A stretch of DNA of 40,532 nucleotides from an uncultured Sulfurovum sp. (GTDB lineage Bacteria; Campylobacterota; Campylobacteria; Campylobacterales; Sulfurovaceae). Below the pieces are notes generated by a model that did not search any database, was not told the DNA's origin, and saw only the letters and a program-made list of their open reading frames with translations. Below, piece by piece: positions 6,175-35,739 of this stretch. Location of the stretch: NCBI GenBank assembly GCA_902727895.1, contig CACVAP010000032.1:1-40532 (forward strand), in the 5' to 3' direction. A program made the translations under genes and the position numbers. Within the stretch, counting starts at the first letter, position 1, and every line of letters begins with the position of its first letter.

Positions 6175-7029
6175 TTAGAGTAAATCATTCAAAACCTCAT
6201 CAATTGTCTCAAATTTAAATTTAAAACCACTCTCTAAAACACGTTTTGGTCGGATACTTTGTCCTTGAGTTAGTATAGATGCACCTTCTCCAAAAATTAG
6301 CCTTACTATGAAAGTAGGTAGGGGTAAAATAGTGGGTCTGTTAAGTGCTTTTCCAAGTGCTTTAGTTAAGCTCCTATTTGTTGTGGGATAGGCAGTTGTC
6401 ATGTTATAGATACCTGCAACTTCATTGTTTGTTAGGGCATGAAAATAAAAACGTTTTAAATCTTCAATATGAATAAAGGAAACACTTTGTTGCCCTGTAC
6501 CAATGATTCCTCCTAATCCTAATTTAAAGGGTGGAATCATTCTTTGTAAAGCACCACCATCTGAGCTTAGCACAATACCAAAACGACAAATGACAGTTCG
6601 AACATTAATCTTTTCTGCTTTTTTAGCTTCAAATTCCCAGTCTTTACAGAGGTTGGCTAAGAAGTTATTTTCAAATGTATCAGAAGTTTCATCGTAAGCT
6701 TTATTGTCTTTATAGATTCCAATTGCAGAGGTTGAGATAAATACTTTAGGAGGATTTTGCGTTTTGGACATTGCTTCAACCAGAGACTTCGTTGTGTCAA
6801 TACGGCTAGAATAAAGTATTTTTTTATAAGCTTTACTCCATCGTTGAAGAATATTTGCACCAGCTAGATTTATAAGTGCTTCTGTCCCTTCTAATTTCTG
6901 CGTTAAAGTATTTAAGTTTTTTAGGTCTTTACGTTCTATTTTTATTACGTTATAACCTTGGTCATTAAAGAACTGAGTTAGGTGCTGACCCACAAATCCA
7001 GATGCACCTGAGATGGCTATGCTTTTCAT
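6175..7029 (-). CDS. TIGR01777-family NAD-dependent epimerase/dehydratase
   Basis: A 284-residue extended-SDR protein with N-terminal Rossmann loop GASGFVG (8-14), the ALINLAGANI segment, and a C-terminal DUF1731-like tail (RPKRVLESGFKFKF). This is the YfcH/SulA-type family, whose substrate is unknown. Relatives are often found near photolyase genes. It has its own copy of the shared promoter signature immediately upstream (7047-7092) and a good AAGGAG ribosome site, which places it in the same regulon as the photolyase operon. Confidence 0.88.
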   Translation of the reverse strand: MKSIAISGASGFVGQHLTQFFNDQGYNVIKIERKDLKNLNTLTQKLEGTEALINLAGANILQRWSKAYKKILYSSRIDTTKSLVEAMSKTQNPPKVFISTSAIGIYKDNKAYDETSDTFENNFLANLCKDWEFEAKKAEKINVRTVICRFGIVLSSDGGALQRMIPPFKLGLGGIIGTGQQSVSFIHIEDLKRFYFHALTNNEVAGIYNMTTAYPTTNRSLTKALGKALNRPTILPLPTFIVRLIFGEGASILTQGQSIRPKRVLESGFKFKFETIDEVLNDLL

Positions 7030-7046: not shown

Positions 7047-7092
7047 TATTATATACTTTTTTACTTCTTTTGGTAGCTTTAAAGTGTCACTT
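7047..7092 (-). promoter_or_regulatory. Regulon promoter copy K (epimerase)
   Basis: On the minus strand: AAGT, GACACTT, five bases, CTAC, eighteen bases, ATATAATA. The ACATT core carries one mismatch (GACACTT); spacing is identical to the other ten copies. It overlaps the stop codon of the LytTR gene. Confidence 0.7.
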
Positions 7093-7802
7093 CATAAACT
7101 AACTTTTTCCAAATATTCCCGAAAAACCTTCGCTCCATCTTTAGAACTCGTCACGATGGTGGAGATGTCTTTAAAAGATATCTCTAATTTTGACTGTTCT
7201 ACACTTTTCATGGACTTTATTTTGTCAATGTTTACAATGTATGAGCGATGAACCCTAAAAAAGTTTGGCGTATCTAAAAGTATTTCAAGGTCTCCAATTT
7301 TTTTACGCACATAGACATCAGCTTCTTTTATTTTGACGATGACTTCATCTAAATCGGCTTTGATATAGAAGATGTCATCGGTATTTATAATGTAAAGTCT
7401 GTTTCCACTTTTACCCACTATCTTTTTGTCAACTTCAGTGTTACTACTGGCTAATGTCTTTACTTTTTCTAATATATTTTGAACCTCTTCAAGACGTACA
7501 GGTTTTAACAAGTACCCAACCCCACCATTTTGAAAAGCTTCTAAAGCATACTCAGAATAGGCTGTTTGAAAAACAATAAAGGTTTTAGGAGAGACTTCCA
7601 TAATGTGGTTTGCGAGTTCTAAACCAGATATTTGTGGCATGGAGATGTCTAAAAAAGCCAAATCAAAACTATTTTTTCCAATCTCTTTCATGGCTTCTAA
7701 GCCATTTTCACAAGCTGTAATGTCTGTTATACCAGCTTCATTAAGGAGCCGTTTTAATCTACCTAAGGCTAAGTTTTCATCATCAACTATGAGTACTTTC
7801 AT
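7092..7802 (-). CDS. LytTR-family response regulator
   Basis: A 236-residue regulator: an N-terminal receiver (1-~120) with acidic pocket DDEN (7-10), phosphoacceptor Asp52 in FLDISMP and the conserved Lys in YLLKPVR, followed by a LytTR DNA-binding domain (~130-235) with FFRVHRSYIVN. LytTR proteins bind paired direct repeats near -35 boxes (family knowledge). It starts four bases after its cognate LytS-type kinase and is the last gene of the photolyase operon. It is the only transcription factor inside the putative regulon, hence the best candidate for reading the shared promoter signature (inference). Confidence 0.93.
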   Translation of the reverse strand: MKVLIVDDENLALGRLKRLLNEAGITDITACENGLEAMKEIGKNSFDLAFLDISMPQISGLELANHIMEVSPKTFIVFQTAYSEYALEAFQNGGVGYLLKPVRLEEVQNILEKVKTLASSNTEVDKKIVGKSGNRLYIINTDDIFYIKADLDEVIVKIKEADVYVRKKIGDLEILLDTPNFFRVHRSYIVNIDKIKSMKSVEQSKLEISFKDISTIVTSSKDGAKVFREYLEKVSL

Positions 7803-7806
7803 GTTG

Positions 7807-8796
7807 CTATCCTTTTAATTTAATACTAAAACTCATGAGGCTTTCGTGGGAGTTATGTATTAGTTCTCCTACGTTTAAAAGTCTTAATCTGTCTTCTAGA
7901 TTGGCTAGACCTGTACCATGCTTTAGTTTTTTAGTTATTTTACCATTATTCGTCACAGTAATTTGCTTTTCACTGCTATAAATATTAATTTCTAAACCTT
8001 TTTGTAAGTAGCCGTGTTTAATGGCATTTTCTACTAAAAGTTGAATGGAGAACTTAGGCACAAGTACTTCACTCAGTGAGTCTTCAATGTCTATGTTTAG
8101 CTTAATCTGATTGTTAAAGCGTATGTTTTCTATGTCCACATAAGTTTGTACCATTTTAAGTTCTGTTGCTAAAGAGATGAGACTCTCTTTGTTAATGGCA
8201 TTCCGTAAAAAGCTAGAAAGGTTTAAAATGGCATCTTCTGCTTTTTTAGCATCAACATAGACCAATTCACTCATAGAGTTTAAAGCGTTAAACAAAAAAT
8301 GAGGGTTTAATTCATTCTCCAAGGCTTTGAGTCTATTTTGACTCATTTGAACTTTGACACTTTCATGTCGGTATTTCATGGCAATAAACTGATGTAAGAT
8401 TAAGCCTATTAAAAAAGTTAGAAACCCTAAAGTAATGCTTAGACCAAGAGACCATGGTGCTAAGAGTAAGGCAATAGGAAGCTCTAAGGTATGCGCAATA
8501 ATAAAGCTTAAAAAGAAGCCTAATGCACCTGAAGCAAAAGAAAACAGAAAACTAATGATGTACCAAAATTTCTCATTGACCTTAGGTAAAATGTAGTTGT
8601 TAGAAAGGCTAATAAAGAGTGATGAAAAAAGTGCAATACTTACGGCTGTTAATACAGAGAAAACAATGGTAGAAAAGTGTTGAATCTCAGGAATTAAAAA
8701 GTAGAAAACGATGGAGATGAAAAAACCAAATAAAGCCCCAATGATTGTAATGTAAAACCAGTCATTTCGACTAATTTTTAATTGCATTTTATCCAT
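7807..8796 (-). CDS. LytS/AlgZ-type membrane sensor histidine kinase
   Basis: A 329-residue kinase with four hydrophobic segments (about residues 15-36, 43-64, 78-101 and 108-135), then a His_kinase (PF06580-type) domain with phospho-His166 in ELNPHFLFNALNS and the ATP-binding N box VENAIKHG (255-262), and a short HATPase end. No separate sensor domain is visible, so the signal must act through the membrane part. Its start overlaps the upstream FAD oxidoreductase gene by 8 bases and it is paired with the LytTR regulator. It belongs to the same operon as the photolyase. Confidence 0.92.
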   Translation of the reverse strand: MDKMQLKISRNDWFYITIIGALFGFFISIVFYFLIPEIQHFSTIVFSVLTAVSIALFSSLFISLSNNYILPKVNEKFWYIISFLFSFASGALGFFLSFIIAHTLELPIALLLAPWSLGLSITLGFLTFLIGLILHQFIAMKYRHESVKVQMSQNRLKALENELNPHFLFNALNSMSELVYVDAKKAEDAILNLSSFLRNAINKESLISLATELKMVQTYVDIENIRFNNQIKLNIDIEDSLSEVLVPKFSIQLLVENAIKHGYLQKGLEINIYSSEKQITVTNNGKITKKLKHGTGLANLEDRLRLLNVGELIHNSHESLMSFSIKLKG

Positions 8797-10210
8797 TATT
8801 AAATTCCTTATTTAGTACGTCAACACCAAGTGCTACACCAGCCCAACCTTGACCTGCAAAAACTGTGTCGCCTATGTTGTAAAGACCTTTAAAGGGTGTT
8901 GTACAAGTCGGGATAGAGAGTATATTTTTAATTTTCAAGGCTTCTCCTCCACAGTTTTGACGACCAATGTAACTTTGAAAGGTTTTGGCTGTTGATGAAA
9001 AGGCTCTGCTGATGTCTTCTTCTTGTATGGTATCAAAATAGTTCAAAAAAGCCCTTGTTATATGTTCTTGAGTGAGTAGTTTTTTTGTTTCATATTCTTT
9101 TTTTGAAAGTCCTTCCCAGATACTTGCTTTTGTATGGGTTGAAATGGTGATGGAATAGCCATCTTTTGAAAGTTTTTCATCATCCTTATCCGAAAAAGAG
9201 ACAAAAAAAGAATTTGAAATACTATTAGGAATTTGTTTGTCTAAGATAATCTGGTAGTGGTGTAAAAAGTCTGCTTTACTTTTGACCTTTAGGTAAAGCA
9301 CAAAAGCACTTTGGTCATTAAATTTGAACTTTTTATAATATTTCTTGATGGCTTTGTCGTCAAAAAGTTGGCTACTTTGGTAAATGGTGGAATTAAGCAC
9401 AACATTCTTAGTATGGTATATACCTTTAGTAGAATGAACTTCATAGTAATCAGCATGTCTTTTAATTTCTAGAATGCCTTCATTCTTCTTATAAGGGACA
9501 TCCTTCAAGAGTCCTTCTATAAGTTCGCCTATTCCTCCTTGAACATAATAAGTCTTATGAAAAGGATAGGCTAAACCTAATGCCATGGTAAGTAGAGAAA
9601 GCTCTTTTGATTTTGTTTGCAAGGTAATAAGTAGTTGAGCATCTATAAATGCTTGGTATTCACTTGAAATCTCTCCTAAACTTTTTTTAATAAACCCATC
9701 AGCAGACATAAAAAGTTGATCCTTATAGGTTTTTAAAATCTCAGTAACACAAGCGATACTTTGTTTATAAGCCGACCATGAATATTTGGCATAGTAGAGC
9801 TTTTTAAGTTCCCAAAATTTTTCATCTATCTCTTTAATCGTTGCCCAAAAATGTCGATTGTTAGCATTGGGGTAGGTTTTTTCAATATTTTCTAAAAAGC
9901 TTTCAAAGTCTTGAACCCTATCAACTTCTTTTTCATCTTGTACAATTCTAACACCGACTTTAGTTTGTATAAGATTGGGTTTATAATCAACTTCATCAAA
10001 AAATCGTTTGACTATATGACCTTCTTCGTAGCCTACAAAGGTGGTAGCTCCTGTATTGTAGTAATTATTGAAACGTTTAAACGTAGAGCTACAACCTCCT
10101 AAATTATTATCTTTTTCAAAAAGGAGTAAGTCATGTTTTTTATGATTAAGTGAAGCAAAGAGTGTGCCTCCTATGCCTGAACCAACGACGATTACATCAT
10201 ACATTTTCAT
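8789..10210 (-). CDS. CrtI/retinol-saturase-like FAD oxidoreductase
   Basis: About 473 residues. The start is taken at MKMYDVIVVG, preceded by an AAGG site six bases upstream; an upstream ATG at 10246 would intrude further into the photolyase gene. The N-terminal FAD-binding loop is GSGIGG (10-15) followed by a phytoene-desaturase-style FEKDNNLGG. The C-terminal FAD contact is NIGDTVFAGQGWAGVALG. Family members desaturate or isomerise polyenes; no carotenoid biosynthesis gene lies in this window, so the substrate is open. It overlaps both neighbours in the photolyase operon. Confidence 0.85.
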   Translation of the reverse strand: MKMYDVIVVGSGIGGTLFASLNHKKHDLLLFEKDNNLGGCSSTFKRFNNYYNTGATTFVGYEEGHIVKRFFDEVDYKPNLIQTKVGVRIVQDEKEVDRVQDFESFLENIEKTYPNANNRHFWATIKEIDEKFWELKKLYYAKYSWSAYKQSIACVTEILKTYKDQLFMSADGFIKKSLGEISSEYQAFIDAQLLITLQTKSKELSLLTMALGLAYPFHKTYYVQGGIGELIEGLLKDVPYKKNEGILEIKRHADYYEVHSTKGIYHTKNVVLNSTIYQSSQLFDDKAIKKYYKKFKFNDQSAFVLYLKVKSKADFLHHYQIILDKQIPNSISNSFFVSFSDKDDEKLSKDGYSITISTHTKASIWEGLSKKEYETKKLLTQEHITRAFLNYFDTIQEEDISRAFSSTAKTFQSYIGRQNCGGEALKIKNILSIPTCTTPFKGLYNIGDTVFAGQGWAGVALGVDVLNKEFNNG

Positions 10211-11537
10211 AGTGTGCCTTTTTAAAAGTTTCGCTAACACGATCACGAGATATTTTAATGGAAATTATTTGTTGAGGATAGTTTAAAAATAGATTTGATT
10301 GAACACCATTTTCTTTATGCAATAGTTTAGCATCAATCTCTTTTAATTGAGGGAGAACGGATTTAATAAAAAGACCTTCTTTATCAAACTTTTCACTTTG
10401 TAAATAAGGGTTGAAAACTCTAAAATAAGGAACAGCATCACTTCCTGTACTCGCTGCCCATTGCCATGAAGCCACATTAGATGAGGCTTCATAGTCAAGT
10501 AGTTTCTCTGCAAAGTATGTTTCACCCCATCGCCAATCAATTAATAGATTTTTAGTTAGATACGAAGCAACAATCATCCGTAGTCTATTGTGCATGAGTC
10601 CTGCTTTATTTAAGTGTTGCATTGCTGCATCGACAATGGGAACACCTGTCTTTCCCTCACACCATTTTTTAAAATGCTCTTTATTATTGTTCCATTCAAC
10701 TTCAATAGGCTTATGGTTTTCAAATTGACTTTTAGGAAAATGATAAAGTAGGTAGTTATAGAATTCTCTAAAAAAGAGTTGCCTTATATAGGGTTTACTC
10801 TCAGAATAAGGACGCATAGCATTAAAAATCTCTTTAGGAGAAATAAGACCAAAACGTAGATGAACACTAATTTCTGACGTACCATTTATGGCAATAAAGT
10901 CTCGATAATGCGTATAGTTAGCCAACCTTTCTGAAAAGATTTTTAAAAGTTGATGAGGATCTTGCATTAAAAAGTTAGGGAGTGGTTGCTCTGTAAAGCC
11001 CATCTCTTCAAGTGTGGGTATATGCCTATGGTTAAACTCAACTAAGCTAAGGTTTTGATTGGTTGTAAATTCTGTAATTTTATTGGCTTCCCAAAGATAG
11101 TGTAAAGCATTGTAAAAAGGAGTAAAGACTTTATAAGGCAAATTACTTTTGTTCAAAACTTCTTTGGAATCAATTAAAAAGCTATCAGAAAAACGTTCTA
11201 GAGGCATAATACTTGCTATATTTTTATCACGCTTCTTAGCATAGTGGTCATTGTCAACAGAGCATAAGACAGAAGTAAAACCTTCCACTTTTAAATTTTG
11301 AAAAACAGTTTCAGGGTCTCCGTAAAAAATGGCTAAATTAAGCCCTAAGCTTTGCAGTTCTTTTTTTAGATTTAAAACACTTTGGTAGATAAAGGTAACA
11401 CGTTTGTCGTTAGAGGGTAGTTTGTTTAAAATATTTGTATCGAAAATAAAAATGGGCAAAACCTCACCTTTAGCATGCGCTAAAATAGCATTGTCTTTAA
11501 TACGTAAATCACGTCTAAACCAAAGTATTTGCTTCAT
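10197..11537 (-). CDS. phrB: Deoxyribodipyrimidine photolyase
   Basis: A 446-residue class I cyclobutane pyrimidine dimer photolyase, which repairs UV damage using blue light and FADH-. The N-terminal antenna domain opens with LWFRRDLRIKDN. The FAD-binding domain carries GVPIVDAAMQHL, HNRLRM and WRWGETYFAEKLLDYE, followed by the WQWAASTGSDAVPYFR signature. Length is normal (E. coli enzyme ~470). It starts at the last base of the DUF523/DUF1722 gene; the ybgA-phr pairing in E. coli parallels this. The operon is driven by regulon promoter copy A. Confidence 0.95.
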   Translation of the reverse strand: MKQILWFRRDLRIKDNAILAHAKGEVLPIFIFDTNILNKLPSNDKRVTFIYQSVLNLKKELQSLGLNLAIFYGDPETVFQNLKVEGFTSVLCSVDNDHYAKKRDKNIASIMPLERFSDSFLIDSKEVLNKSNLPYKVFTPFYNALHYLWEANKITEFTTNQNLSLVEFNHRHIPTLEEMGFTEQPLPNFLMQDPHQLLKIFSERLANYTHYRDFIAINGTSEISVHLRFGLISPKEIFNAMRPYSESKPYIRQLFFREFYNYLLYHFPKSQFENHKPIEVEWNNNKEHFKKWCEGKTGVPIVDAAMQHLNKAGLMHNRLRMIVASYLTKNLLIDWRWGETYFAEKLLDYEASSNVASWQWAASTGSDAVPYFRVFNPYLQSEKFDKEGLFIKSVLPQLKEIDAKLLHKENGVQSNLFLNYPQQIISIKISRDRVSETFKKAHYENV

Positions 11538-12490
11538 TACTTATACGCTTTAATGTTTGAACGAAGTCCAAGTTCTGCTGGATAAGGATTAAGAAATTTT
11601 TGTACTTTTAAATAATCCATATTAAAACGTTTTACATGAAGGTTGAGTAGTTTAATAACAGCAATCAAAGGAATGACACCTTGTTTAAACTCTTCAATGG
11701 CTGTCAACATGTGTTCTTTTTCATCGGCTGAAATAAGTTTTTTGAAATACCCATAAATGTGTAGCAGTACATTGTAAGTTTTGGAAATATTACCTTTTTC
11801 ATTAATGGCAACTAGAAATTCATGATAGTAGTCATTTAATAGTTCTTCTAAACTTTGTTTTTTATTATTGGCAACAATATTTCCTAAGATTTTATAAGCA
11901 ACGGTTGATTTAGCATAGATGAGGTATTTATAAGAAGTATGAAAGGCAATCAAGTCTTTCATTTTAGGCTTAGTTTTCATAAATTGATGAATACCTTTGT
12001 AGGCAAAGATTTGCATCAAAAAGTTTTCACGTAACCATGCGTCTTCAAGTCGCCCTTCTTCTTCCATGGGTAAATAGGGATAACGTTCTCTAAGTGCTTT
12101 GGCAAAAAGACCAACTCCTTTTTTTTCATTTGGAGCATTGACGATGGGCTGGTAAACTTTAACCCGTTCCATACCACAAGTGGGTGATTTGGATTTAAGT
12201 ATAAATCCACAAAGTTCTTCTTCTAGCGCTTCATCGGCTAATTCATTAGAAATTTTTGCTAACTCTACTGTAACATTTTTCTTGCTTTGATTGGTATGTA
12301 TTTCAATATTATTGTCAACCTCAACCTGTCGAATGGTTTCACGAGGTGTACCAAAGATGATTTTTTCAGGACAATATGCTTCAAGTTCAAAATAGTTTTG
12401 TAAGATATTGACAACATATTTATCTTTAGCTCCTGTGCCATCATAACGACACTGTGTGCCAAGAAGACACTCCGATACACCTAATTTCAT
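11537..12490 (-). CDS. DUF523-DUF1722 fusion protein (YbgA-like)
   Basis: A 317-residue two-domain protein. The N-terminal DUF523 domain (1-~155) has the cysteine motif ECLLGTQCRYDG (7-18) and a later SPTCGME; relatives include thiouracil desulfurases (TudS) that hold an iron-sulfur cluster. The C-terminal DUF1722 domain (~185-310) is the YbgA domain (AFHTSYKYLIYAKS and related motifs). DUF1722 proteins commonly sit beside photolyase. As first gene of the five-gene operon it follows regulon promoter copy A. The exact biochemical role is unknown; repair or recycling of photodamaged or thiolated bases is only a suggestion. Confidence 0.9.
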   Translation of the reverse strand: MKLGVSECLLGTQCRYDGTGAKDKYVVNILQNYFELEAYCPEKIIFGTPRETIRQVEVDNNIEIHTNQSKKNVTVELAKISNELADEALEEELCGFILKSKSPTCGMERVKVYQPIVNAPNEKKGVGLFAKALRERYPYLPMEEEGRLEDAWLRENFLMQIFAYKGIHQFMKTKPKMKDLIAFHTSYKYLIYAKSTVAYKILGNIVANNKKQSLEELLNDYYHEFLVAINEKGNISKTYNVLLHIYGYFKKLISADEKEHMLTAIEEFKQGVIPLIAVIKLLNLHVKRFNMDYLKVQKFLNPYPAELGLRSNIKAYK

Positions 12491-12518: not shown

Positions 12519-12564
12519 ATAATAACGGAAGTAAATGTTTTTTAGTAGGCTTTAAATGTTCGTT
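12519..12564 (-). promoter_or_regulatory. Regulon promoter copy A (photolyase/LytS-LytTR operon)
   Basis: On the minus strand: AACG, AACATTT, five bases, CTAC, eighteen bases, GTTATTAT. A second AACATTT occurs 22 bases after the first, within the spacer. It lies about 30 bases upstream of the DUF523-DUF1722 start. Confidence 0.78.
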
Positions 12565-12591
12565 GGTTTTTTTGTAAAAGAAGAGGGGAGA

Positions 12592-14605: not shown

Positions 14606-14639
14606 AATCTATGAGGATTTTTTCATATCTTCATAGATT
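14606..14639. terminator. Possible bidirectional terminator between mscS-like gene and hemH
   Basis: A 12-bp imperfect stem (AATCTATGAGGA against TCTTCATAGATT, one G-T pair) overlaps the last codons and stop of hemH, nine bases after the MscS-like stop. It sits where two convergent transcripts meet. The T-tract lies in the loop, so this is tentative. Confidence 0.35.
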
Positions 14640-15550
14640 CCTCTCAAAGCATCAACAAACATCGGATGGTCATTAGGTGCTTTAGCAACCTTATACTCTT
14701 CAAAGTTTAATTCATCAGCAATCTCTTTGTATTCAATGTCAAGTTCAAATTCTGTTTCTGAATTGTCTACCGTAAACGCAATAGGAAATATAATAACTTT
14801 CTTTTTCGTCAAGGCTTTTAATTTGTCTTCTAAATAAGGACGAATCCACTCCATAGGTCCTAAGCGTGATTGGTAAGCTAAATGTGTTTTATGAAAGTTG
14901 ATTTTTTGTAGCATCAACTCTTTTCTGGCATAAAAAAGGGTATAACGAATTTGACGTTGATATTGGTCACCTTGGTCAATAATTTTTTGAGGTAGTCCAT
15001 GTGCTGAAAAAACAAGCTCATAGTCACTTGGGTCTTCATTTCCTAAAGTTTCTTTAACACGTTCTACAATGGAGCTAATGTAAGCAGGGTCTTTGTAGTA
15101 ATTGTCAATGGTTTTGATTTTATGTTCAATACCCAACTTTTTCGCTTCATGCATTAAATCTTCATAAGAAGAAAGTGTGGTGGTTGATGAGTTATGAGGG
15201 TACATAGGAATGGCATAAATTTCATCATAATCTTTTACACCTTCTAAAACATCTTTACTGAAAGGTGCGTTATAACGCATGGAATAATCAACTTTGGCAT
15301 CTATTTTTGCTTCTAATGCTTCAACAAGTTTTTTAGTATAAGCCACGATGGGTGACTTCCCTCCTAATTGAGCATAGTTTCCTTGTGCCTCTTTTAGTCT
15401 GGTCTTTGTAATAAACCAAGCAATCATGGCTCGAATAGGTTGTGGCGCAGGAATAATATGTTTGTCATTAAACATGTTGGTTAAAAAGGTTTTGACCTCA
15501 TCAAGATTATTTGGACCTCCCATATTTAATAGTATCACACTTCTTTTCAT
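14609..15550 (-). CDS. hemH: Ferrochelatase
   Basis: A 313-residue enzyme inserting ferrous iron into protoporphyrin IX, the last step of protoheme synthesis. Visible signatures are the N-terminal LLNMGGPNNLDEV, the catalytic-His motif VFSAHGLPQKII (His near 183), and a C-terminal FTVDNSETEFELDIEY with the conserved acidic residues. It has its own copy of the regulon promoter 37 bases upstream, between it and the 61-aa gene. Placing hemH in a photo-oxidative regulon makes sense because it removes a photosensitising porphyrin (inference). Confidence 0.95.
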   Translation of the reverse strand: MKRSVILLNMGGPNNLDEVKTFLTNMFNDKHIIPAPQPIRAMIAWFITKTRLKEAQGNYAQLGGKSPIVAYTKKLVEALEAKIDAKVDYSMRYNAPFSKDVLEGVKDYDEIYAIPMYPHNSSTTTLSSYEDLMHEAKKLGIEHKIKTIDNYYKDPAYISSIVERVKETLGNEDPSDYELVFSAHGLPQKIIDQGDQYQRQIRYTLFYARKELMLQKINFHKTHLAYQSRLGPMEWIRPYLEDKLKALTKKKVIIFPIAFTVDNSETEFELDIEYKEIADELNFEEYKVAKAPNDHPMFVDALRGIYEDMKKSS

Positions 15551-15586: not shown

Positions 15587-15632
15587 ATTTTATAGAAAAG
15601 AAGGGTTTGTTCGTAGGGTTTAAATGTCAGTT
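15587..15632 (-). promoter_or_regulatory. Regulon promoter copy F (hemH)
   Basis: On the minus strand: AACT, GACATTT, five bases, CTAC, eighteen bases, TATAAAAT. It is a canonical match and sits just after the stop of the 61-aa gene. Upstream bases resemble the A/T stretch seen before copies C and D. Confidence 0.85.
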
Positions 15633-15640
15633 AAAAAATT

Positions 15641-15826
15641 TTACTTTGAAGTGTCTTCATCGTCATCATAAATAGTGAAGATAGGTGCGTAACCCATTGC
15701 TATTAATTTTCTATCCATTTGTTTAGCATCAAAGCCATCTCTTTTAATTGCATTGGTTAGTTTTGTAATTTGACCGATGCTTAGCCCTGTTAATTCTAAT
15801 TCAAACTTTATCTCTTCTATTTCCAT
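15641..15826 (-). CDS. Small hypothetical protein (61 aa)
   Basis: A 61-residue cytosolic protein I do not recognise. It has no signal peptide or membrane segment. It is predicted helical, with an LSIGQITKLTNAIKRDGFD segment, a KLIAMGYAP turn and an acidic tail (DDDED). A GGA-type ribosome site precedes the ATG, and a canonical regulon promoter copy lies 26 bases upstream, which strongly supports a real gene. It lies between hemH and the SOUL gene. Function unknown. Confidence 0.72.
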   Translation of the reverse strand: MEIEEIKFELELTGLSIGQITKLTNAIKRDGFDAKQMDRKLIAMGYAPIFTIYDDDEDTSK

Positions 15827-15851: not shown

Positions 15852-15897
15852 ATTCTATAGTAAAAACATGTTTTTTAGTAGTCAAAAAATGTTCATT
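15852..15897 (-). promoter_or_regulatory. Regulon promoter copy G (61-aa gene)
   Basis: On the minus strand: AATG, AACATTT, five bases, CTAC, eighteen bases, TATAGAAT. A second AACAT occurs 22 bases after the first, as in copy A. Confidence 0.85.
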
Positions 15898-15915
15898 GAT
15901 AAGATTTATTTCTAA

Positions 15916-16563: not shown

Positions 16564-16601
16564 GTAGAAGCGTTAGCATAAGCCTATGCTAACGCTTCTA
16601 C
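16564..16601. other. Perfect 17-bp inverted repeat spanning a stop codon
   Basis: GTAGAAGCGTTAGCATA and its exact complement flank a 4-base loop. The right arm encodes the last residues (VEALA) and stop of the FAD oxidoreductase gene; the left arm lies in the leader of the SOUL gene. There is no clean T-tract on either strand, so it may attenuate or stabilise mRNA rather than terminate fully. Confidence 0.6.
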
Positions 16602-18011
16602 ATTTCGATTTGCCAACACTTTAGGATAGTCCCTTAGTTTTGCAATCGTCTGAGCATGTTGTGCGATGCTATGTTCATCAAGATAGTTTAGGCTTACTCT
16701 TTTGGCTAGACTAGGTTTGATATGTTGAAGCTCTATCAAGTTTTTGATAATCCTATTTGCCATATCAAGTGATGAAGATACTTTAACAATTTCACAACGT
16801 GCATAGTTTTTACTTGGAAATGATACTTCAGCTACACGAAGCGTTGGGTCATCTCCTGGAATCTGTTGGGCTCCAAAAAGAGGTTTTGCCCCAACATTTG
16901 CTTCTCTAAAACTGGGTAAATAATTTGCTAAGTGTTCTATGGCTTTATGTGTACGCATTTCAACTTCCTCTTTTTCCCACTGTTTGTCCAACTTAGTAAT
17001 AAAATGTCCATTTAATTTGGCTTGAGAACTCTCATTACTACTGCTTACTAGACCATCTTTATAAAGTGTAATATCTTCAGTCATTCCATGAAGTTGAAAA
17101 TATCCTGCTGGGTAAGGGGTGAGTTGACCCATGCCTTTTGGGGTTCCCCTTTCACCATGAATAATAATTTCAGGAAAAAGTATGTCCTCTTTTTGTTCCC
17201 AATGACTTACATAAGAAGCTTTAAATTCAACCATCTTTTCAGAACGAACATCTAGCATGTCATCAATGCTTCCTGTCTTATAACCTGTGGCATTAATAAG
17301 GTAATCAAAAGTCTCTTTCTCAACTCTATTATCAGTAGCATAAGTCACTTCCCATCTATCGCTTTTGTTTTGAATATTTTGAACTGTTGTGTTTCCATGA
17401 TAATGAACATTGGTAAATTTGTCTAATGCCAATTCAAGACCAGAGGCATAACGAAATAAATTAATACCATACTCCTGTACCAATACAAGTGGGAATTGAA
17501 GTTTATTCAAGTCAAGATGTTGTATGGCAGGTAGCATCCACTCATCTAAGCTACTTGGATTCTTTTGAATGGCTAAATTTTTGAGTGCTTCTATGTCATC
17601 TTTTTCATAAAGTTTATAGTAGAACTCACTTTCACCCAATACTTTGTTCTCTTTGTCTTCTTCAATCATTCCTTCATAGGCTTTTTTAAGAAGTTTTAAA
17701 CGAGGTAGTAAGGCATTGGGTGAGAGTTTATCCGTTAAGGGAACAGCAATCACGGTAGGTCGATAATCAATACAAAATGGATAAGTACGCACGAAGTCAA
17801 TAGATTGTTTAAGTAGTGTTAAGCATTGTTGATCGGATATCTCACGGTAAAGGTTACCTCCTGCATGTAAATGACAATAGGGTGGACCAGATGAGATACT
17901 CGACTGTTTTTCAAATAAACTAACTTCTAATCCTAATTCTGCTAAATGAAGTGCTGTCGTTGATCCTGCAACCCCTCCACCTACAATGGCTATTTTTGTT
18001 TTATGTGACAT
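16584..18011 (-). CDS. FAD-dependent oxidoreductase
   Basis: A 475-residue cytosolic flavoprotein. The dinucleotide-binding loop is IVGGGVAGSTTALHLAELG (9-27) followed by an acidic VSLFEKQ, with a second motif DYLINATGYKTG near residue 245. Its substrate family is not clear to me; it looks like a DAO-type or NAD(P)-binding oxidoreductase. It has a canonical regulon promoter 22 bases upstream of the ATG and is probably co-transcribed with SOUL. Its C-terminal codons form half of a perfect hairpin. It is one of three FAD enzymes in the regulon. Confidence 0.85.
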   Translation of the reverse strand: MSHKTKIAIVGGGVAGSTTALHLAELGLEVSLFEKQSSISSGPPYCHLHAGGNLYREISDQQCLTLLKQSIDFVRTYPFCIDYRPTVIAVPLTDKLSPNALLPRLKLLKKAYEGMIEEDKENKVLGESEFYYKLYEKDDIEALKNLAIQKNPSSLDEWMLPAIQHLDLNKLQFPLVLVQEYGINLFRYASGLELALDKFTNVHYHGNTTVQNIQNKSDRWEVTYATDNRVEKETFDYLINATGYKTGSIDDMLDVRSEKMVEFKASYVSHWEQKEDILFPEIIIHGERGTPKGMGQLTPYPAGYFQLHGMTEDITLYKDGLVSSSNESSQAKLNGHFITKLDKQWEKEEVEMRTHKAIEHLANYLPSFREANVGAKPLFGAQQIPGDDPTLRVAEVSFPSKNYARCEIVKVSSSLDMANRIIKNLIELQHIKPSLAKRVSLNYLDEHSIAQHAQTIAKLRDYPKVLANRNVEALA

Positions 18012-18032: not shown

Positions 18033-18078
18033 ATTTTATAAAGAAAGTCTGTTTTTTAGTAGAGTTAGAATGTTAATT
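18033..18078 (-). promoter_or_regulatory. Regulon promoter copy H (FAD oxidoreductase/SOUL)
   Basis: On the minus strand: AATT, AACATTC, five bases, CTAC, eighteen bases, TATAAAAT. The far end touches the stop codon of the upstream SRPBCC gene. Confidence 0.85.
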
Positions 18079-18533
18079 CATCCTAAAATCTCTTTTGTTT
18101 GTGCATGTCGATAAGTAAACATTTTTTGCATGTCTTTTTTGATGAACGGTAAAGCAACAATACTTAAGGGATAAAGAGGCAGTTCAAAAGTAATGGTATC
18201 GCTAAGTGTTGACGTTGTTCCATTAATGGTCTTAAAAGAACGTTCATGATAAAAACTTTTAAAAGGACTTTTTAAAGCAATATCACAAATCTGATTATAA
18301 GCTTGCATTTTATCAATCTGCATCACCCAACGGTTGCTTAAGCCATATTGTTTAATGTCAAGGGTTATCATACTTTTTTCTTCCAATGGAAGTGTTAAAT
18401 CAATAATCTTAACATCAATCCACGGTGGGGTAATCTTGGGTAAGTTGTTTGTATCAGAATGAAATTCAAACAACTTTTCAATATTTGTCTCTATCGTACT
18501 TGTAAAAGTGAACGAGAACTTTTTAGAAAACAT
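18078..18533 (-). CDS. SRPBCC-family (START/Bet v1-like) protein
   Basis: A 151-residue single-domain protein of the SRPBCC ligand-binding superfamily: an N-terminal strand (KFSFTFTSTIETNIEKLFEFH), the central strands, and a helical end (LPFIKKDMQKMFTYRHAQTKEIL). The family binds hydrophobic ligands and is often annotated as cyclase/dehydrase or ligand-binding. Relatives often sit beside epimerase and photolyase genes. It lies 11 bases after trpB, last in the thiD-trpB operon. The ligand is unknown. Confidence 0.82.
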   Translation of the reverse strand: MFSKKFSFTFTSTIETNIEKLFEFHSDTNNLPKITPPWIDVKIIDLTLPLEEKSMITLDIKQYGLSNRWVMQIDKMQAYNQICDIALKSPFKSFYHERSFKTINGTTSTLSDTITFELPLYPLSIVALPFIKKDMQKMFTYRHAQTKEILG

Positions 18534-18544
18534 TTTAACTCCTT

Positions 18545-19759
18545 TTATAATCTATCTTTTAAAATATCCATCGCCTGAATCATGTCTTTGTCTCCTCGAC
18601 CTGAAAGGCTGATGATAATCGTTTTACCTTTTATTTCCTCTTTAGGTATTTTTTTGAGGTAGGCAATGGCATGAGCAGATTCAAAAGCAGGAACAATTCC
18701 TTCTTCTCGACTTAACCATACAAAAGCTTCTATGGCTTCATCATCGGTTACATTATCGTATTTAACCTTGCCTTGTTCCATGAGGTAAGAGTGTTCTGGA
18801 CCAATTCCTGGGTAGTCTAGTCCAGCTGAAATAGAATAAGCTTCTTCCACTTGCCCTTCATCACTCTGTAGTAAATAGCTGAGTTGTCCATGTAGGATCC
18901 CTGGTTTACCTAAGGCTAAACTCGCACCATGCTCACCACTCTCTAAGCCTCTTCCACCTGCTTCTATGCCGATGCATTGGGTTTTTTCTTCTTCTATGAA
19001 ATGGGCAAACATCCCTAAAGCATTTGAACCTCCACCAATACAAGCAAGAACATAATCAGGCATATCATAGTTTTGAGCGATAACTTGTTTTTTAGCTTCA
19101 TCACTGATAATTCCTTGAAAGTCACGTACCATCAATGGATAAGGGTGAGGACCAGCAGCTGTACCAATAACATAAAAGGTATCACGTGCATGGGTGACCC
19201 AATGACGTATGGCATCATTCATTGCATCTTTTAGGGTAGAACTTCCAGACTCAACAGCATGGACTTTTGCCCCTAAAAGTTTCATTCTAAAGACATTGAG
19301 TTTTTGACGTTCTACATCTTTAGCACCCATAAAAACTTCACACTCTAAACCCATAAGCGCTGCAACTGTAGCCGAAGCAACACCATGTTGTCCAGCACCT
19401 GTTTCTGCAATAATCTTTGTTTTTCCCATACGTTTTGCCATAAGACCTTGGACGATGGTATTATTGATTTTGTGTGCTCCTGTATGGTTGAGGTCTTCAC
19501 GCTTGAGTAAAATGGTTGCATCCAACTCTGCTGAAAGTTTTTTAGCATGATAAAGAGGTGATGGACGACCCACATAGTGTGAGGAGAGTTCATGAACTTC
19601 ATCCCAAAATGTCTTATCAAACCTTATGGTTTTGTAAAACTCATCAAGTTCAATCAGAATGGGCATAAGTGTCTCAGGAACATAACGTCCACCAAATTTA
19701 CCAAAGTGACCTCTCTCATCTGGATCAGATAAGAATGCTTTAGGAATATACGTGTTCAT
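18545..19759 (-). CDS. trpB: Tryptophan synthase beta chain
   Basis: A 404-residue PLP enzyme condensing indole with serine. The PLP lysine is Lys97 in [19 protein letters not shown] binds the cofactor phosphate, and the N-terminal [15 protein letters not shown] is TrpB1-like. Its start overlaps the thiD end by 20 bases. There is no trpA or other trp gene beside it, which is unusual: trpB here is separated from its pathway and sits in a thiamine-gene operon with a stress-type promoter. Whether a second trpB exists elsewhere cannot be told from the window. Confidence 0.95.
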
Positions 19760-20549
19760 TTACAGCTCCTTTAGATAATTCTACAGCTAATTTATGAGCT
19801 ATTGGTCCTTTTCCATGACCGATATTAGGGGCATTTTTAATGCCTAAATAAATAAAGTTCTTTGAAATCTCAATAGACTCTTTTAAACTTTTTCCCAATG
19901 CCAAGTTAGCAGCAATGGCAGAAGAGAAACTACAACCTGTTCCATGCGTATTTTTTGATTGAAGTGAGGGTGTTCTAAAATGATACATCTGATTTTTGTT
20001 GTAAAGGGTGTCTACGGAGTGAAATACTTGATGCTCTTCTGTACTTTCATGCTTTACTAAAATTTTATAAGGTTGATTAAAGAGAGATTTAATGGATGAT
20101 TCATCATCTTTTTTATACCCAAAGAGTGCTTCTGCTTCAAATCTATTTGGGGTAATGAGTGTTGCATAAGGGAAGAGGGTCTTCAAATTTTCTATGGCAT
20201 CATCATTAAGTAATTTTGAACCAGCCTTAGAAATAAATACGGGATCCACAACAATAGGAATATCAAGGTTTTTAATAATTTCACGAACAACATCAATAAT
20301 CTCATTAGAAAACAGCATACCAACTTTAATGGCAGCTACATCAAAATCTTCTAAAACAGCGTTAATTTGTTCTTTAACAAAGAGAGGGCTAACTTCATGA
20401 ATATCTGTTACGCCTTTTGTATTTTGTGCAGTGAGTACCGTAATGGCAGTTGTTCCAAAAAGTCCAAATGCTTCAAAACTTTTTAAGTCAGCTTGGATTC
20501 CAGCACCTCCTGAAGAGTCACTACCTGCAATTGATAATACTACTTTCAT
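19740..20549 (-). CDS. thiD: Hydroxymethylpyrimidine/phosphomethylpyrimidine kinase
   Basis: A 269-residue ribokinase-fold enzyme phosphorylating HMP and HMP-P in thiamine synthesis. The substrate loop is [18 protein letters not shown] (6-23) and the anion-hole motif is [20 protein letters not shown] (near residue 200). It is the first gene of a thiD-trpB-SRPBCC operon behind regulon promoter copy C. The 43 bases around that promoter are identical to those in front of thiE 14.5 kb away. No TPP riboswitch fits in the short leader. Confidence 0.95.
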
Positions 20550-20579: not shown

Positions 20580-20625
20580 AGTTTAGCTCTAATGGTACTT
20601 TTTTAGTAGGTAGAAAATGTCAGTT
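20580..20625 (-). promoter_or_regulatory. Regulon promoter copy C (thiD operon)
   Basis: On the minus strand: AACT, GACATTT, five bases, CTAC, eighteen bases, GCTAAACT (a weak -10). It stands back to back with copy B, with 29 bases between the cores. Confidence 0.8.
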
Positions 20626-20641
20626 TAAAAATTTTATGGGT
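20599..20641 (-). repeat. 43-bp repeat, copy 1 (upstream of thiD)
   Basis: Forty-three consecutive bases are identical to 35094-35136, in the same orientation relative to the downstream thiamine gene. The repeat covers the regulon core plus an upstream A/T-rich stretch ending in ACCCAT. Identity stops abruptly at both ends. Confidence 0.9.
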
Positions 20642-20654
20642 CAATTAAAAAATC

Positions 20655-20700
20655 AATCAACATTTTTTACCTACAAAGTTCCTCATTATTGGGTTAAGCT
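20655..20700 (+). promoter_or_regulatory. Regulon promoter copy B (SDR operon)
   Basis: AATC, AACATTT, five bases, CTAC, eighteen bases, GTTAAGCT. The -10 at the expected place is weak; TATGAA lies a few bases further. It is almost the same as copy E, sharing the bases just after CTAC (AAAGTTC) and GGGTTAA. Confidence 0.78.
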
Positions 20701-20720: not shown

Positions 20721-21476
20721 ATGTCACTAAACGTTTGGATTATTGGTGCGAGTCAAGGTATTGGCTTGGAACTTGCAAAATATTATTTAAAACATAATCA
20801 TAGCGTCATCATAAGTGCAAGAGAAATAGAAAAGTACCCAATACTCTCTTCATTGAAAAATGAATACCAAGAACAAGTGGACTTTATAAATATGGATGTG
20901 ACCAATACACTAAGTGTAAAACTAGCCATGCAAAAAGCATGGAAGTGCTATGGTCATTTAGATATTTGTATTTACAATGCTGGTATTTATGAAGCCATGC
21001 CCATAGATGAGTGGAATTTAGAACATTTTGAAAACATGAACCAAGTTAATCATATGGGTGCTATACGAGTGCTTACCGAGATTGTGCCTCTATTTAAAGA
21101 GCAAGCTAGAGGGCATTTAGTTTTTAATGCGAGTATTTCAAGTTATTTGGGTTTACCCTATGGAGGAGGATACTCTGCTCCTAAAGCTGCTTTGTTAAAC
21201 TTTTGTGAATCCATAGAACCAGAGCTTGCTACTTTTAATATTAAAGTTCAAGTCATTAACCATGGATTTGTAAAAACACGACTAACTCAAAAAAATGATT
21301 TTAACATGCCACAACTTTTAGAACCCAAAGAAGCTGCTGTAAAAATTTATGAAGGTGTAATGCACTCAAAAAAATTTGAAATCAAATTTCCTTGGGCATT
21401 AACACGTTTCTTAACTTTTTTACAAATGCTTCCTTATGGTATATCGTTAAATCTAACAAAAAAGGCACTTAAATGA
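20721..21476 (+). CDS. Short-chain dehydrogenase/reductase
   Basis: A 251-residue classical SDR. The cofactor loop is GASQGIG (9-15), the NAG motif lies at 86-88 and the catalytic Tyr151 and Lys155 are in YSAPK. It acts on a hydroxyl or keto group of an unidentified substrate. It is the first gene of an overlapping operon with an NTF2-like protein and an MFS transporter. SDR plus NTF2-like genes recur beside the FAD/DUF1365/Cfa module in other proteobacteria (family knowledge). An AAGGA site precedes the ATG; promoter copy B drives it. Confidence 0.92.
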   Translation: MSLNVWIIGASQGIGLELAKYYLKHNHSVIISAREIEKYPILSSLKNEYQEQVDFINMDVTNTLSVKLAMQKAWKCYGHLDICIYNAGIYEAMPIDEWNLEHFENMNQVNHMGAIRVLTEIVPLFKEQARGHLVFNASISSYLGLPYGGGYSAPKAALLNFCESIEPELATFNIKVQVINHGFVKTRLTQKNDFNMPQLLEPKEAAVKIYEGVMHSKKFEIKFPWALTRFLTFLQMLPYGISLNLTKKALK

Positions 21477-21904
21477 GTACAGTACTATTTGCAGAAGCTT
21501 ATGCAGGCTTCTATGAGGAACTCTCTCCTAACTTTAGTAAAACAGAGTATGGACTCTTCTTTGATGATTATTCACGATTTGAAGATCCCTTTCAAAAAGT
21601 AGAAGGTCTTGAGGCGATAGAACATATATTTGTTGATATGTATGAAAAATTGCATGAACCACGTTTTGTGGTTGATGAAGTAATTTGTTCTAAAGAGGTT
21701 GCTTATTTAAAATGGCAATTTATTTATGCTATGAATCCTAAAGAAGAAACACAAACTTTTACAGGGGTTTCACGCGTAACCTTTTCAACATTGGGTAAGG
21801 TATTGACCCATACCGACTATTGGGATGCTGCTCAGCATGTTTATGAAAAAATACCAATTTTAGGAAGTATAATACGACTGATAAAAAGAAAACTTCATGC
21901 TTAA
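21473..21904 (+). CDS. NTF2-like (SnoaL-type) protein
   Basis: A 143-residue protein of the cone-shaped NTF2/SnoaL fold, suggested by the FEDPFQKVEGLEAIEHIF segment, central strands (YLKWQFIYAM) and the TGVSRVTFSTLGKVLTHTDYWDA end. Family members are small-molecule isomerases, hydrolases or binding proteins; the role here is unknown. It overlaps the SDR stop by four bases (ATGA), which suggests the two act together. Confidence 0.85.
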   Translation: MSTVLFAEAYAGFYEELSPNFSKTEYGLFFDDYSRFEDPFQKVEGLEAIEHIFVDMYEKLHEPRFVVDEVICSKEVAYLKWQFIYAMNPKEETQTFTGVSRVTFSTLGKVLTHTDYWDAAQHVYEKIPILGSIIRLIKRKLHA

Positions 21905-23132
21905 ACAAAAGAAGTATCTTTTTTATGCCACACCAGCTTTACCCTTAGCCCTTTTGGGCTTACCTCTCTATGTTTACTTACCAACCTACTATGCACAAGA
22001 TGTTGGTTTGGGTGTTTTTGTTGTAGGGGCTATTTTACTTTTAGCCAGAATATTAGATATGTTTTTAGATCCACTCATTGGTTACTACAGTGACCGTTAT
22101 GCTTCACGAAAAAGCATGATGTTTTTTGGAATGTTCTTACTTCTTACAGGTTTTTACTTTTTAACCAATCCCTCCATAAATGCTGATGCTTGGTGGTTAC
22201 TACTCTTTTCCATACTTGTTTATTTTGGTTGGAGTTTAATGACCATTCCCTATTTGGCTTTTGGTGCTGATCTAGGTCAAGACTATAAAGAGAACAGTAG
22301 CTATGCCTCTTATAGAGAAGTTTTTAATATACTGGGCGTACTTTTAGCACTCATTTTACCTTATGCTTTAAATGTGGCTGACAAAGCAGATGAATCACTG
22401 GCATTAATGAATCAAGTTATTTTGGTTTTACTGCCATTGCTATTTTTATTTTTTGTGCTAAGTACAAAAAAACAACACATCGAAAAGCGTCAACAAAAAT
22501 TTAAAGTGTTTTATGTTTCATTTGTGCAACGCTTAAAAAAATCACGACATCTTTTTGGAGCATTTCTACTCAACAACTTTGCCAATGCCATACCTGCGAC
22601 ACTTTTTTTACTCTATGTCGAATTTGTTATTGGGAGTGTGGAACAAACAGGTTTGTTACTTATTATCTATTTTTTAGCAGGGATTATAGGGCTTCCTTTT
22701 TGGAACTATGTGGCTGGGAGAACCTCTAAAAAACAAGCATGGATTTATTCTATGATGAGTGCTTCTTTCTTTTTCGCTTTTGTCCCTTTTTTAGGTGCAG
22801 GTGACTTTAATGCTTTTTTACTCATTAGCATCTTTACAGGATTTAGTTTAGGTGCAGACATGGCATTACCAGCTTCAATGCAAGCTGATGTTGCACAAGA
22901 AGGAAACAAAGACGTTTCGGGAACACTGTTTGGGTTCTTTGCCATGTTAACTAAACTCTCTTTGGCATTGGGAGTTGGGGTGAGTTTTGGTATCTTGGGA
23001 GTTTTTGAATTTTCTACTGAAAATCCTACAGCAGATTCATTGCTAGTACTCTCTTTGATTTATGCTTTGTTGCCCATTATTTTAAAGTTTGTTGCTATTT
23101 TGATGCTTTCAAAGTATAAGGAAACACTTTAA
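21897..23132 (+). CDS. MFS transporter (GPH/MelB-like)
   Basis: A 411-residue inner-membrane protein with about twelve hydrophobic segments. It has the loop motif PLIGYYSDRYASRK (about 57-70), typical of the glycoside-pentoside-hexuronide:cation symporter branch of MFS. Relatives are found in SDR/FAD/Cfa gene clusters; the substrate is unknown and need not be a sugar. It overlaps the NTF2-like gene by 8 bases. Confidence 0.9.
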   Translation: MLKQKKYLFYATPALPLALLGLPLYVYLPTYYAQDVGLGVFVVGAILLLARILDMFLDPLIGYYSDRYASRKSMMFFGMFLLLTGFYFLTNPSINADAWWLLLFSILVYFGWSLMTIPYLAFGADLGQDYKENSSYASYREVFNILGVLLALILPYALNVADKADESLALMNQVILVLLPLLFLFFVLSTKKQHIEKRQQKFKVFYVSFVQRLKKSRHLFGAFLLNNFANAIPATLFLLYVEFVIGSVEQTGLLLIIYFLAGIIGLPFWNYVAGRTSKKQAWIYSMMSASFFFAFVPFLGAGDFNAFLLISIFTGFSLGADMALPASMQADVAQEGNKDVSGTLFGFFAMLTKLSLALGVGVSFGILGVFEFSTENPTADSLLVLSLIYALLPIILKFVAILMLSKYKETL

Positions 23133-23199
23133 GTAGGTCAAAATCTATTAGATGTTATTTTTCGAGAAAAATTTTTTTAACTATAAAATGGGGAAAGAA

Positions 23200-25089: not shown

Positions 25090-25107
25090 ATTAATCGTTT
25101 CACGATG

Positions 25108-25153
25108 AACTAACATTTAAGCACTACCAACAAAGCATTACATGTTATAAAAT
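25108..25153 (+). promoter_or_regulatory. Regulon promoter copy I (lipocalin-FAD-DUF1365-Cfa operon)
   Basis: AACT, AACATTT, five bases, CTAC, eighteen bases, TATAAAAT. A canonical copy. The -10 box ends exactly where the first ATG of the lipocalin gene begins, so transcription should start within or just before the second ATG at 25160. Confidence 0.88.
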
Positions 25154-25678
25154 ATGAGTATGAAAAATTTACTTTTAATATTTTTAATATCTACTACTGT
25201 TTATGCCAATAGTTTAAATCCCATAAGTTATGTTGACGACAAAAAGTTCTCTGGTTTATGGTATGAGATTGCAAGAACTTATAATGAGTATCAAGAAAAA
25301 TGTGTGGCTTCCTCTGTTGAGTATGAACTTGTTGAACCTTTAGAGTATAAAGTGTTTAATCGATGTTTTGATAGCAAAATAGGAGCTGAACTTATAGAGT
25401 ATGAAGGAACAGCCAGTTCAGTAGATGGAAAAAGTATGGCTTCTCTTGATATGACTTATTTTTGGATATTTACAGAGAATTATAAAATTTATTATCTTGA
25501 TAAGGCATATCAGTATGCACTTATAGCAGATGATTCATTTGAACAAGTCTGGATTATGTCACGTAAACCTTCCATGCCTCAAAATATATTAGAAGAAATC
25601 AAAAAACAACTCTCTGGTGTAATGAAAATTAAAGACCTCATTTACACGCTTCAAGATGAAGAAGGAAAATACAAATGA
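25154..25678 (+). CDS. Lipocalin family protein (Blc-like)
   Basis: A 174-residue secreted lipocalin. The signal peptide (to VYA, about residue 18) has no lipobox Cys, so it is likely periplasmic. The lipocalin G-x-W motif is GLWYEIAR (35-42). The later strands include TYFWIFTENYKIYYLD and the closing VWIMSRKPSM. Two Cys in the N-half may pair. Bacterial lipocalins bind lipids or heme-like ligands. The second ATG (25160) is the likelier start because the promoter -10 abuts the first one. It is first in a five-gene overlapping operon. Confidence 0.9.
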   Translation: MSMKNLLLIFLISTTVYANSLNPISYVDDKKFSGLWYEIARTYNEYQEKCVASSVEYELVEPLEYKVFNRCFDSKIGAELIEYEGTASSVDGKSMASLDMTYFWIFTENYKIYYLDKAYQYALIADDSFEQVWIMSRKPSMPQNILEEIKKQLSGVMKIKDLIYTLQDEEGKYK

Positions 25679-27650: not shown

Positions 27651-27651
27651 A

Positions 27652-28878: not shown

Positions 28879-29408
28879 TTTTAAAAAGCTTAATCATTTC
28901 TTTTACAGCCATATCTTTCATGGCTTGCTCTTCAATGAATATTGATGATTTTAAAGAGAGTAAACCAGCATTTGTTCCTCAAGAGTATTTCAACGGTAAA
29001 ATGACAGCTTATGGTATTGTTAAAGATTACAACGGTAAAATTATTCGTAGTTTCAAAGGCGATTTACTAGGAAGTTGGGATGCCAAAGGCATTGGAACTT
29101 TAGATGAACACTTTGTTTATAATGATGGTGAAAAGCAACATCGTGTTTGGACATTAACCCCTACATCTGACCCTAAAAAGTTCATAGGTACTGCTGGAGA
29201 TATTGTAGGAGATGCTCCTATGGTGGTTAATGGTAATACCGTCATGATAGATTACACCATGCGAGTACCTTATGGTGATGACACCATAGACATTGCTGTA
29301 CAAGATTGGTTGCATTTACAAGAAGACGGAGTGATTATTAACCATTCTAAAATGAAAAAATTTGGGTTTACGGTGGGTGAATTGGTTATTACTATTGTTA
29401 AAGAGTAG
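28875..29408 (+). CDS. DUF3833 lipoprotein
   Basis: A 177-residue lipoprotein: a signal sequence with lipobox FMAC (Cys18), then the DUF3833 domain with FNGKMTAYGIVKDYNGKI, TLDEHFVYNDGE and a WLHLQEDGVIINHSKMKKFGF close. Function unknown. It is a regular last member of FAD-DUF1365-Cfa operons. It overlaps the Cfa stop by four bases. Anchored in the envelope, it may help present or protect the modified lipids (speculative). Confidence 0.9.
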   Translation: MILKSLIISFTAISFMACSSMNIDDFKESKPAFVPQEYFNGKMTAYGIVKDYNGKIIRSFKGDLLGSWDAKGIGTLDEHFVYNDGEKQHRVWTLTPTSDPKKFIGTAGDIVGDAPMVVNGNTVMIDYTMRVPYGDDTIDIAVQDWLHLQEDGVIINHSKMKKFGFTVGELVITIVKE

Positions 29409-34412: not shown

Positions 34413-34422
34413 GTTGTTTCCT

Positions 34423-35678: not shown

Positions 35679-35724
35679 AGTATATAGGAAAAATTAATGT
35701 ATTGGTAGTTTAAAAATGTCAGTT
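35679..35724 (-). promoter_or_regulatory. Regulon promoter copy J (lipocalin lipoprotein)
   Basis: On the minus strand: AACT, GACATTT, five bases, CTAC, eighteen bases, TATATACT. Confidence 0.83.
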
Positions 35725-35739
35725 GAAGGGATAAAACTT

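Follow-up and report, generated by a model that had tools for sequence, protein, structure and literature searches.

A two-component system encoded in a DNA stretch of 40,532 nucleotides from an uncultured Sulfurovum sp. (assembly GCA_902727895.1, contig CACVAP010000032.1; the whole stretch is referred to below as the window) very probably switches on a set of genes that protect this bacterial group against light damage. The system comprises a LytS-type membrane histidine kinase and a LytTR response regulator, encoded in a photolyase operon. LytTR is likely to regulate the regulon directly through a shared promoter motif to which it is predicted to bind and, given binding, there is good reason to expect activation rather than repression. 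The LytS/LytTR pair would thus constitute an autoregulated system activating a photo-oxidative-stress type regulon of photolyase, two lipocalins, CFA synthase, DUF1365 and DUF3833 proteins, flavin oxidoreductases, ferrochelatase, a SOUL haem protein, an ABC1 kinase, SDR, SnoaL and MFS proteins, and thiamine genes.

All five gene calls of the operon, DUF1722/TudS–photolyase–flavin oxidoreductase–LytS–LytTR, are supported by Pfam matches, and the genes, all on the minus strand, overlap or are only a few bases apart:

7092..7802 (−): LytTR response regulator (REC + LytTR), putative activator; Pfam Response_reg 2.7e-25, LytTR 3.2e-21
7807..8796 (−): LytS-type membrane histidine kinase; Pfam His_kinase 4e-22, four transmembrane (TM) helices
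8789..10246 (−): AmOx1, CrtD/CrtH-like flavin amine oxidoreductase; Pfam Amino_oxidase/NAD_binding_8, NCBIfam CrtD 2e-42, below cut-off
10197..11537 (−): DNA photolyase; Pfam FAD_binding_7 5e-67, DNA_photolyase 5e-28
11537..12490 (−): fusion of TudS/2-thiouracil desulfurase and DUF1722, the operon's first gene; Pfam

The LytTR and LytS genes are separated by 4 bp, and LytS overlaps the oxidoreductase gene by 8 bp, which in turn overlaps photolyase. The translational coupling of the pair to photolyase that had been proposed in the original prediction therefore runs only through this intermediate gene and is not direct. The accompanying proposal that one motif copy, copy A, heads the operon was borne out, with the motif at 12542-12559 (−), 69 nt 5' of the DUF1722 start. 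The regulator is the single LytTR-domain protein encoded in the whole 2.96-Mb draft genome, whose nearest named relatives are uncultured Sulfurovum metagenome-assembled genomes (78-90% LytTR identity). The regulator's REC and C-terminal LytTR domains score above the Pfam cut-offs, as expected of a LytTR (AlgR/AgrA/LytR) response regulator, while its top NCBIfam hit, BtsR, falls below cut-off. The phospho-acceptor D52, together with D7/D8/K100, is invariant across 32 orthologues.

Exact matches to the motif ACATTYNNNNNCTACNAA are strongly concentrated in the window, which holds ten of the 11 found genome-wide in 1.4% of the genome (binomial 2.5e-18). These ten are all intergenic; the eleventh (contig C68), which lies within an open reading frame (ORF), and most one-mismatch matches, which are ORF-internal or low-scoring, were rejected as sites. 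Two more copies emerge with a profile of 36 non-redundant sites, one before an epimerase-family gene and one on contig C44. All 11 good copies in the window are intergenic and each is directed at a downstream gene, while three further weak profile matches in the window are ORF-internal. The 11 copies, with their position weight matrix (PWM) scores, are as follows:

12542..12567 (−): copy A, predicted operator/promoter of DUF1722-Phr-AmOx1-LytS-LytTR; PWM 27.3, 69 nt before the start codon, −10 box TATTAT
7070..7095 (−): copy with one mismatch (7070-7087) before the epimerase-family gene 6175-7029; PWM 25.3, orthologous exact site in G085 (L079:9081)
15610..15635 (−): copy before ferrochelatase (FeCh) 14609-15550; PWM 29.9, conserved before FeCh in G121, G123, G126 and others
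15875..15900 (−): copy (exact part 15875-15892) before a 61-aa ORF 15641-15826; PWM 25.0, similar site at L077:4198
18056..18081 (−): copy before an FAD oxidoreductase (DAO) 16584-18011; PWM 26.0, conserved at L073:9984
20603..20628 (−): copy before ThiD-PALP-SRPBCC 18078-20549; PWM 29.9, conserved before ThiD in G126, G133, G124, G142 and G100
20652..20677 (+): copy before SDR-SnoaL-MFS2-DUF389 20721-25089; PWM 28.3
25105..25130 (+): copy before lipocalin-amine oxidase-DUF1365-CFA synthase-DUF3833 25154-29408; PWM 29.6, conserved in L298
35098..35123 (−): copy before ThiE-NMT1-phasin-ABC1 31680-35040; PWM 29.9
35702..35727 (−): copy before a lipocalin 35129-35647; PWM 29.4, conserved in L078, L303, L304 and L311
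37345..37370 (+): copy before MipA and orf416 37464-39493; PWM 27.1

The element ATNAAYTRACATTT-N5-CTACNAA stands in for the −35 box and has a TAWAAT −10 box at a distance of 17 bp. The consensus of the 36 sites is ATNAAYTRACATTTTNNNCCTACNAAAA, with TAWAAT 17 bp past TACNAA, and the fixed −10 positions are conserved as T33, A34, A33 and T34 out of 36. Because TACNAA is ideally spaced for a −35 box but resembles TTGACA poorly, the sites resemble σ70 promoters that depend on an activator. A degenerate 21-bp direct repeat spans about −55 to −30 of the predicted operator, its second (proximal) half being weak. Self-similarity of the motif profile at offsets of 6-30 peaks at 21 bp (best of 25; z=2.4, nominal p=0.018), and within-site identity is likewise highest at this offset (46.6%; 23 offsets, 36 sites). 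This corrects the original prediction, in which AACAT was said to recur 22 bases later; the repeat is present in copy A, but the offset is 21 bp, as it is at best over all 36 sites. The antisense TCAGTT, which had been likened to a LytTR half-site, coincides with the distal half-site of the motif. Binding sites of LytTR regulators consist of two 9-bp direct repeats around a 12-bp spacer, so that the repeats begin 21 bp apart (PMC2766830, PMC2714321), and a repeat spacing of 10-13 bp has been given for the family (PMC11347149). More broadly, the family is characterised by paired direct repeats of 9-10 bp, 11-13 bp apart, that overlap −35 or lie upstream of it. When published LytTR half-sites were slid along the motif sites (44 positions), the YpdB site GGCATTTCAT and the AlgR site CCGTTCGTC, both reversed, each had their two best positions exactly 21 bp apart and mutually within one base, and the PlnC/D site selected the same best 21-bp pair. 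The repeat is therefore consistent with LytTR-site geometry, although with a weaker proximal half-site this counts as support and not as proof.

The same promoter anatomy bears on whether the regulator activates. LytTR could instead bind the motif and repress, blocking the −35 region until relieved by a signal, in the manner of CoxC, a LytTR protein whose repressor sites are direct repeats that overlap −35 (PMC11347149); the proximal element here likewise overlaps −35. We consider repression unlikely, since a repressed promoter need not lose its −35 box, whereas TACNAA is a poor TTGACA match at an ideal 17-bp spacing, and since the majority of LytTR regulators are activators with sites located upstream of −35 (PMC11347149).

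The distribution of the motif across genomes supports direct regulation by LytTR. A LytTR orthologue was found in 22 of 150 Sulfurovaceae genomes and photolyase in 27, with both present in 19; photolyase thus occurs in 19/22 LytTR-positive genomes versus 8/128 LytTR-less genomes (Fisher p=5e-15). Among 347 sampled Campylobacterota genomes, 41 encode a LytTR orthologue, representing 18 of 64 genera. In a held-out test, the operon heads of 22 LytTR loci, nearly all from other Campylobacterota families, were scored with a PWM derived from 24 Sulfurovaceae sites, and 29 of 57 regulon operon heads scored at least 10, as opposed to three of 125 others (Mann-Whitney p 8e-16). Approximately 50 exact motif matches occur in LytTR-less Sulfurovaceae genomes and almost all are ORF-internal; in these genomes no free match precedes a regulon gene, save one each in genomes G122 and G100. 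The regulon genes seen in six of the eight photolyase-positive LytTR-less genomes lack the motif (PWM −15 to 1.4), with the contig ending within photolyase in two of the six; the other two of the eight are G120, with a weak motif, and G122, with a strong one. Co-occurrence of the motif and the LytTR gene across genomes had been proposed as a check, and the motif does follow LytTR, but two LytTR-less genomes keep a strong copy.

Several observations weigh against direct regulation by LytTR. One strong motif is retained in each of the LytTR-less genomes G122, which is a single contig, and G100, which is 99% complete and carries its copy on a 3.1-kb contig, and LytTR-less G120 holds one weak, decayed motif. 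Some LytTR-positive genomes (G030, G084, G106 and parts of G067) do not have a recognisable site at every orthologous promoter. The 21-bp periodicity reaches no more than nominal significance and its second half-site is weak, the half-sites are predicted to run in the direction opposite to the PlnC/D sites, and the source genome is a draft, 96% complete with 4% contamination.

The strong copies in G122 and G100, two occurrences of the motif without LytTR that the original prediction had named as grounds for refutation, also suggest an alternative in which a different regulator, with its gene elsewhere in the genome, recognises the motif and LytS/LytTR is a mere regulon member or passenger; the comparison of the remaining transcription-factor repertoire, which was not exhaustive, leaves room for such a protein. 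The G122 copy is best read as a relic, however, although its neighbourhood does not prove this. Relative to G126/G133, G122 shows three deletions with flanks 82-90% identical (blastn; L089/L262, G122:C1:886000-917000), removing ThiD-ThiE-NMT1, a block from PALP to DUF3833, and a block of epimerase, FeCh, AmOx1, LytS and LytTR. With LytS–LytTR, AmOx1 and most of the targets lost by deletion, the remaining motif copy is plausibly a relic, and no alternative regulator was found beside photolyase in G122, where the neighbours tested were PNPOx, NmrA/DUF2867, PRPP synthase and LepA. An unseen regulator is further disfavoured by the genome's lack of an extracytoplasmic function (ECF) sigma factor, by MerR proteins that do not track the motif, and by a motif that follows LytTR across families and has LytTR geometry; we regard it as improbable. 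G122 offers a natural setting in which to study how the motif decays once its regulator is gone.

In Vibrio, Rhodobacter and Pseudomonas, equivalent regulons place the same targets under ECF-sigma or LitR/CarH (MerR) promoters (PMC5241685, PMC5507510), and the possibility that the motif is such a promoter can be given very little credence, as neither the predicted ECF sigma gene nor a LitR-type MerR gene was found in the genome and the −10 box is σ70-like. The absence of LitR, CarH, ChrR and ECF sigma genes from the window, noted at the outset, was confirmed. Genome-wide, a single protein with sigma70 region 2 is present, a 624-aa frame of primary-sigma type and size, and ECF sigma control was rejected because the genome has no such gene. 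Two MerR proteins (124 and 237 aa) are encoded, neither of them in the window; no B12-binding domain was found in the larger one, such that the LitR/CarH combination of a MerR helix-turn-helix with a B12-binding domain does not occur in the genome. Nor does the MerR family co-vary with the motif, G100 having only one member (124 aa) and motif-free genomes having the same kinds, and LitR/CarH control was rejected on both counts. At the level of the promoter, a MerR-type arrangement (dyad in a 19-20 bp spacer) was discarded because the motif occupies −35 and the DNA before it, with a spacer of 17 bp, and ACAT/CTAC was discarded as an ECF −35/−10 pair because the two are 11 bp apart and are followed by a σ70 −10 box.

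Regulation by LytTR would proceed as follows. A membrane-level signal would cause the four-TM LytS to phosphorylate LytTR at D52, and phosphorylated LytTR would bind two degenerate half-sites 21 bp apart, ATNAAYTRA from near −55 and ACNAA from near −34. Standing in for a −35 box, the occupied half-sites would allow the regulator to recruit RpoD-RNA polymerase to the TAWAAT −10 box, and copy A would close an autogenous loop. LytS itself has the features of a LytS-type (PF06580) kinase, namely a multi-TM N-terminus, a PHFLFN H-box and a VENAIKH N-box, with H166 and N257 of the two boxes invariant in 35 orthologues. An AlphaFold2 model (mean predicted local distance difference test score 83.5) has helices at 10-34, 41-72, 75-103 and 107-181, giving four predicted TM helices joined by loops of 2-6 residues, the last continuing into the dimerisation helix. 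Domain searches of LytS found no PAS, GAF, LOV, BLUF or extracytoplasmic domain. Among solved structures, the GanS kinase domain is closest in sequence, and sequence and fold searches of the PDB matched the kinase core only (GanS, DesK), with nothing clear for the sensor helices. Four TM helices with short loops and no sensor domain make LytS a likely intramembrane-sensing kinase. That the targets include ferrochelatase, the SOUL protein and CFA synthase suggests a membrane or porphyrin photodamage cue as the signal.

LytS and LytTR are consecutive on one strand in all 45 loci examined. In 42 of the 43 loci with enough DNA, AmOx1 precedes LytS on the same strand, and in 37 of the 43 it does so within 60 bp, counts that may include a few same-species duplicates. 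Photolyase is often, not always, found in the LytS–LytTR operon, and AmOx1 is accordingly the most constant partner of the pair, more so than photolyase; LytS, LytTR and AmOx1 stay together in Sulfurovaceae, Aliarcobacter-type and other Campylobacterota families. AmOx1 is nearest to carotenoid desaturase/isomerase models, below their cut-offs, and its tight linkage to LytS hints at a functional link to sensing. More tentatively, AmOx1-LytS-LytTR might form a three-part light/singlet-oxygen sensor that replaced ECF-sigma/MerR control in Campylobacterota, with the kinase sensing intramembrane photo-oxidative damage and AmOx1 acting as a light/redox-responsive partner that makes or modifies the signal, a proposal that we hold to be conceivable but doubtful.

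Judged by its domains the system is a LytS/LytTR two-component system, and judged by its output it appears to work like a σE-ChrR or MerR photo-oxidative response. Escherichia coli YpdA/YpdB and BtsS/BtsR, which pair a kinase and regulator of the same types, respond to pyruvate or nutrients and have very few targets, unlike the approximately 12 promoters of light-damage genes and the short four-TM sensor part seen here. YpdB binds a direct repeat of its half-site (PMC4847170). Pseudomonas aeruginosa AlgZ/AlgR (PMC4064291) also combines a membrane LytS-like kinase with a LytTR regulator, and the reversed 9-bp AlgR site matches both half-sites of the motif; AlgZ/AlgR differs in controlling alginate and pili from scattered sites, some far upstream, with no fixed replacement of −35. 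Photolyase, CFA synthase, amine oxidase and SDR genes are members of the σE-ChrR core regulon (PMC5507510), and the system of Rhodobacter sphaeroides (PSPTO_1043 in Pseudomonas syringae, PMC5507510) resembles the present one in its photolyase, CFA synthase, flavin amine oxidase, SDR, lipoprotein and small conserved genes. That system relies on an ECF sigma and the anti-sigma ChrR, but the present genome has no ECF sigma, its promoters are of σ70 type and an operator replaces −35. The Vibrio cholerae blue-light response is run by a MerR protein and ChrR (PMC5241685), as opposed to a two-component system, although there too a photolyase operon and CFA synthase are co-induced, and the MerR gene VCA0056 adjoins phr and affects its own expression. 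Without an ECF sigma or LitR-type MerR, the present system is not a member of either group, and, since its targets match theirs, it looks like their response placed in the hands of another controller.

A photolyase regulon run by LytS/LytTR was unfamiliar to the original prediction, and a literature search, with most subscription journals outside its reach, likewise gave no LytTR–photolyase link. The same protective gene set is under ECF sigma–ChrR or MerR in Proteobacteria and apparently under LytS/LytTR in several Campylobacterota families; with ECF sigma absent and MerR not tracking the motif where checked, this would, if true, be a clear example of a conserved regulon whose regulator has been exchanged. 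It would also supply a candidate controller of light/photo-oxidative stress in Campylobacterota with about a dozen defined promoters, and raises the question of what a four-helix membrane kinase lacking a chromophore domain detects.

Some further observations concern the extent of the regulon. A twelfth motif copy (L394:647-664, G000:C44) heads ThiD-like, FAD oxidoreductase, UbiD-like and CbiX-like genes, the FAD and UbiD-like names being readings of the translations, and extends the regulon past the window. Thiamine genes (ThiD, ThiE, NMT1/THI5-like; 19740-20549, 33540-35040) recur in the regulon across several genera. The 61-aa ORF at 15641-15826 (−), unannotated and lying between SOUL and ferrochelatase, has no Pfam match but carries its own motif copy, as at the equivalent place in L077, and is a candidate small regulon protein. 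Inside the regulon island, a C5-cytosine DNA methylase and a family-less 367-aa ORF (29436-31576, −) lack the motif and may represent a restriction-modification pair.

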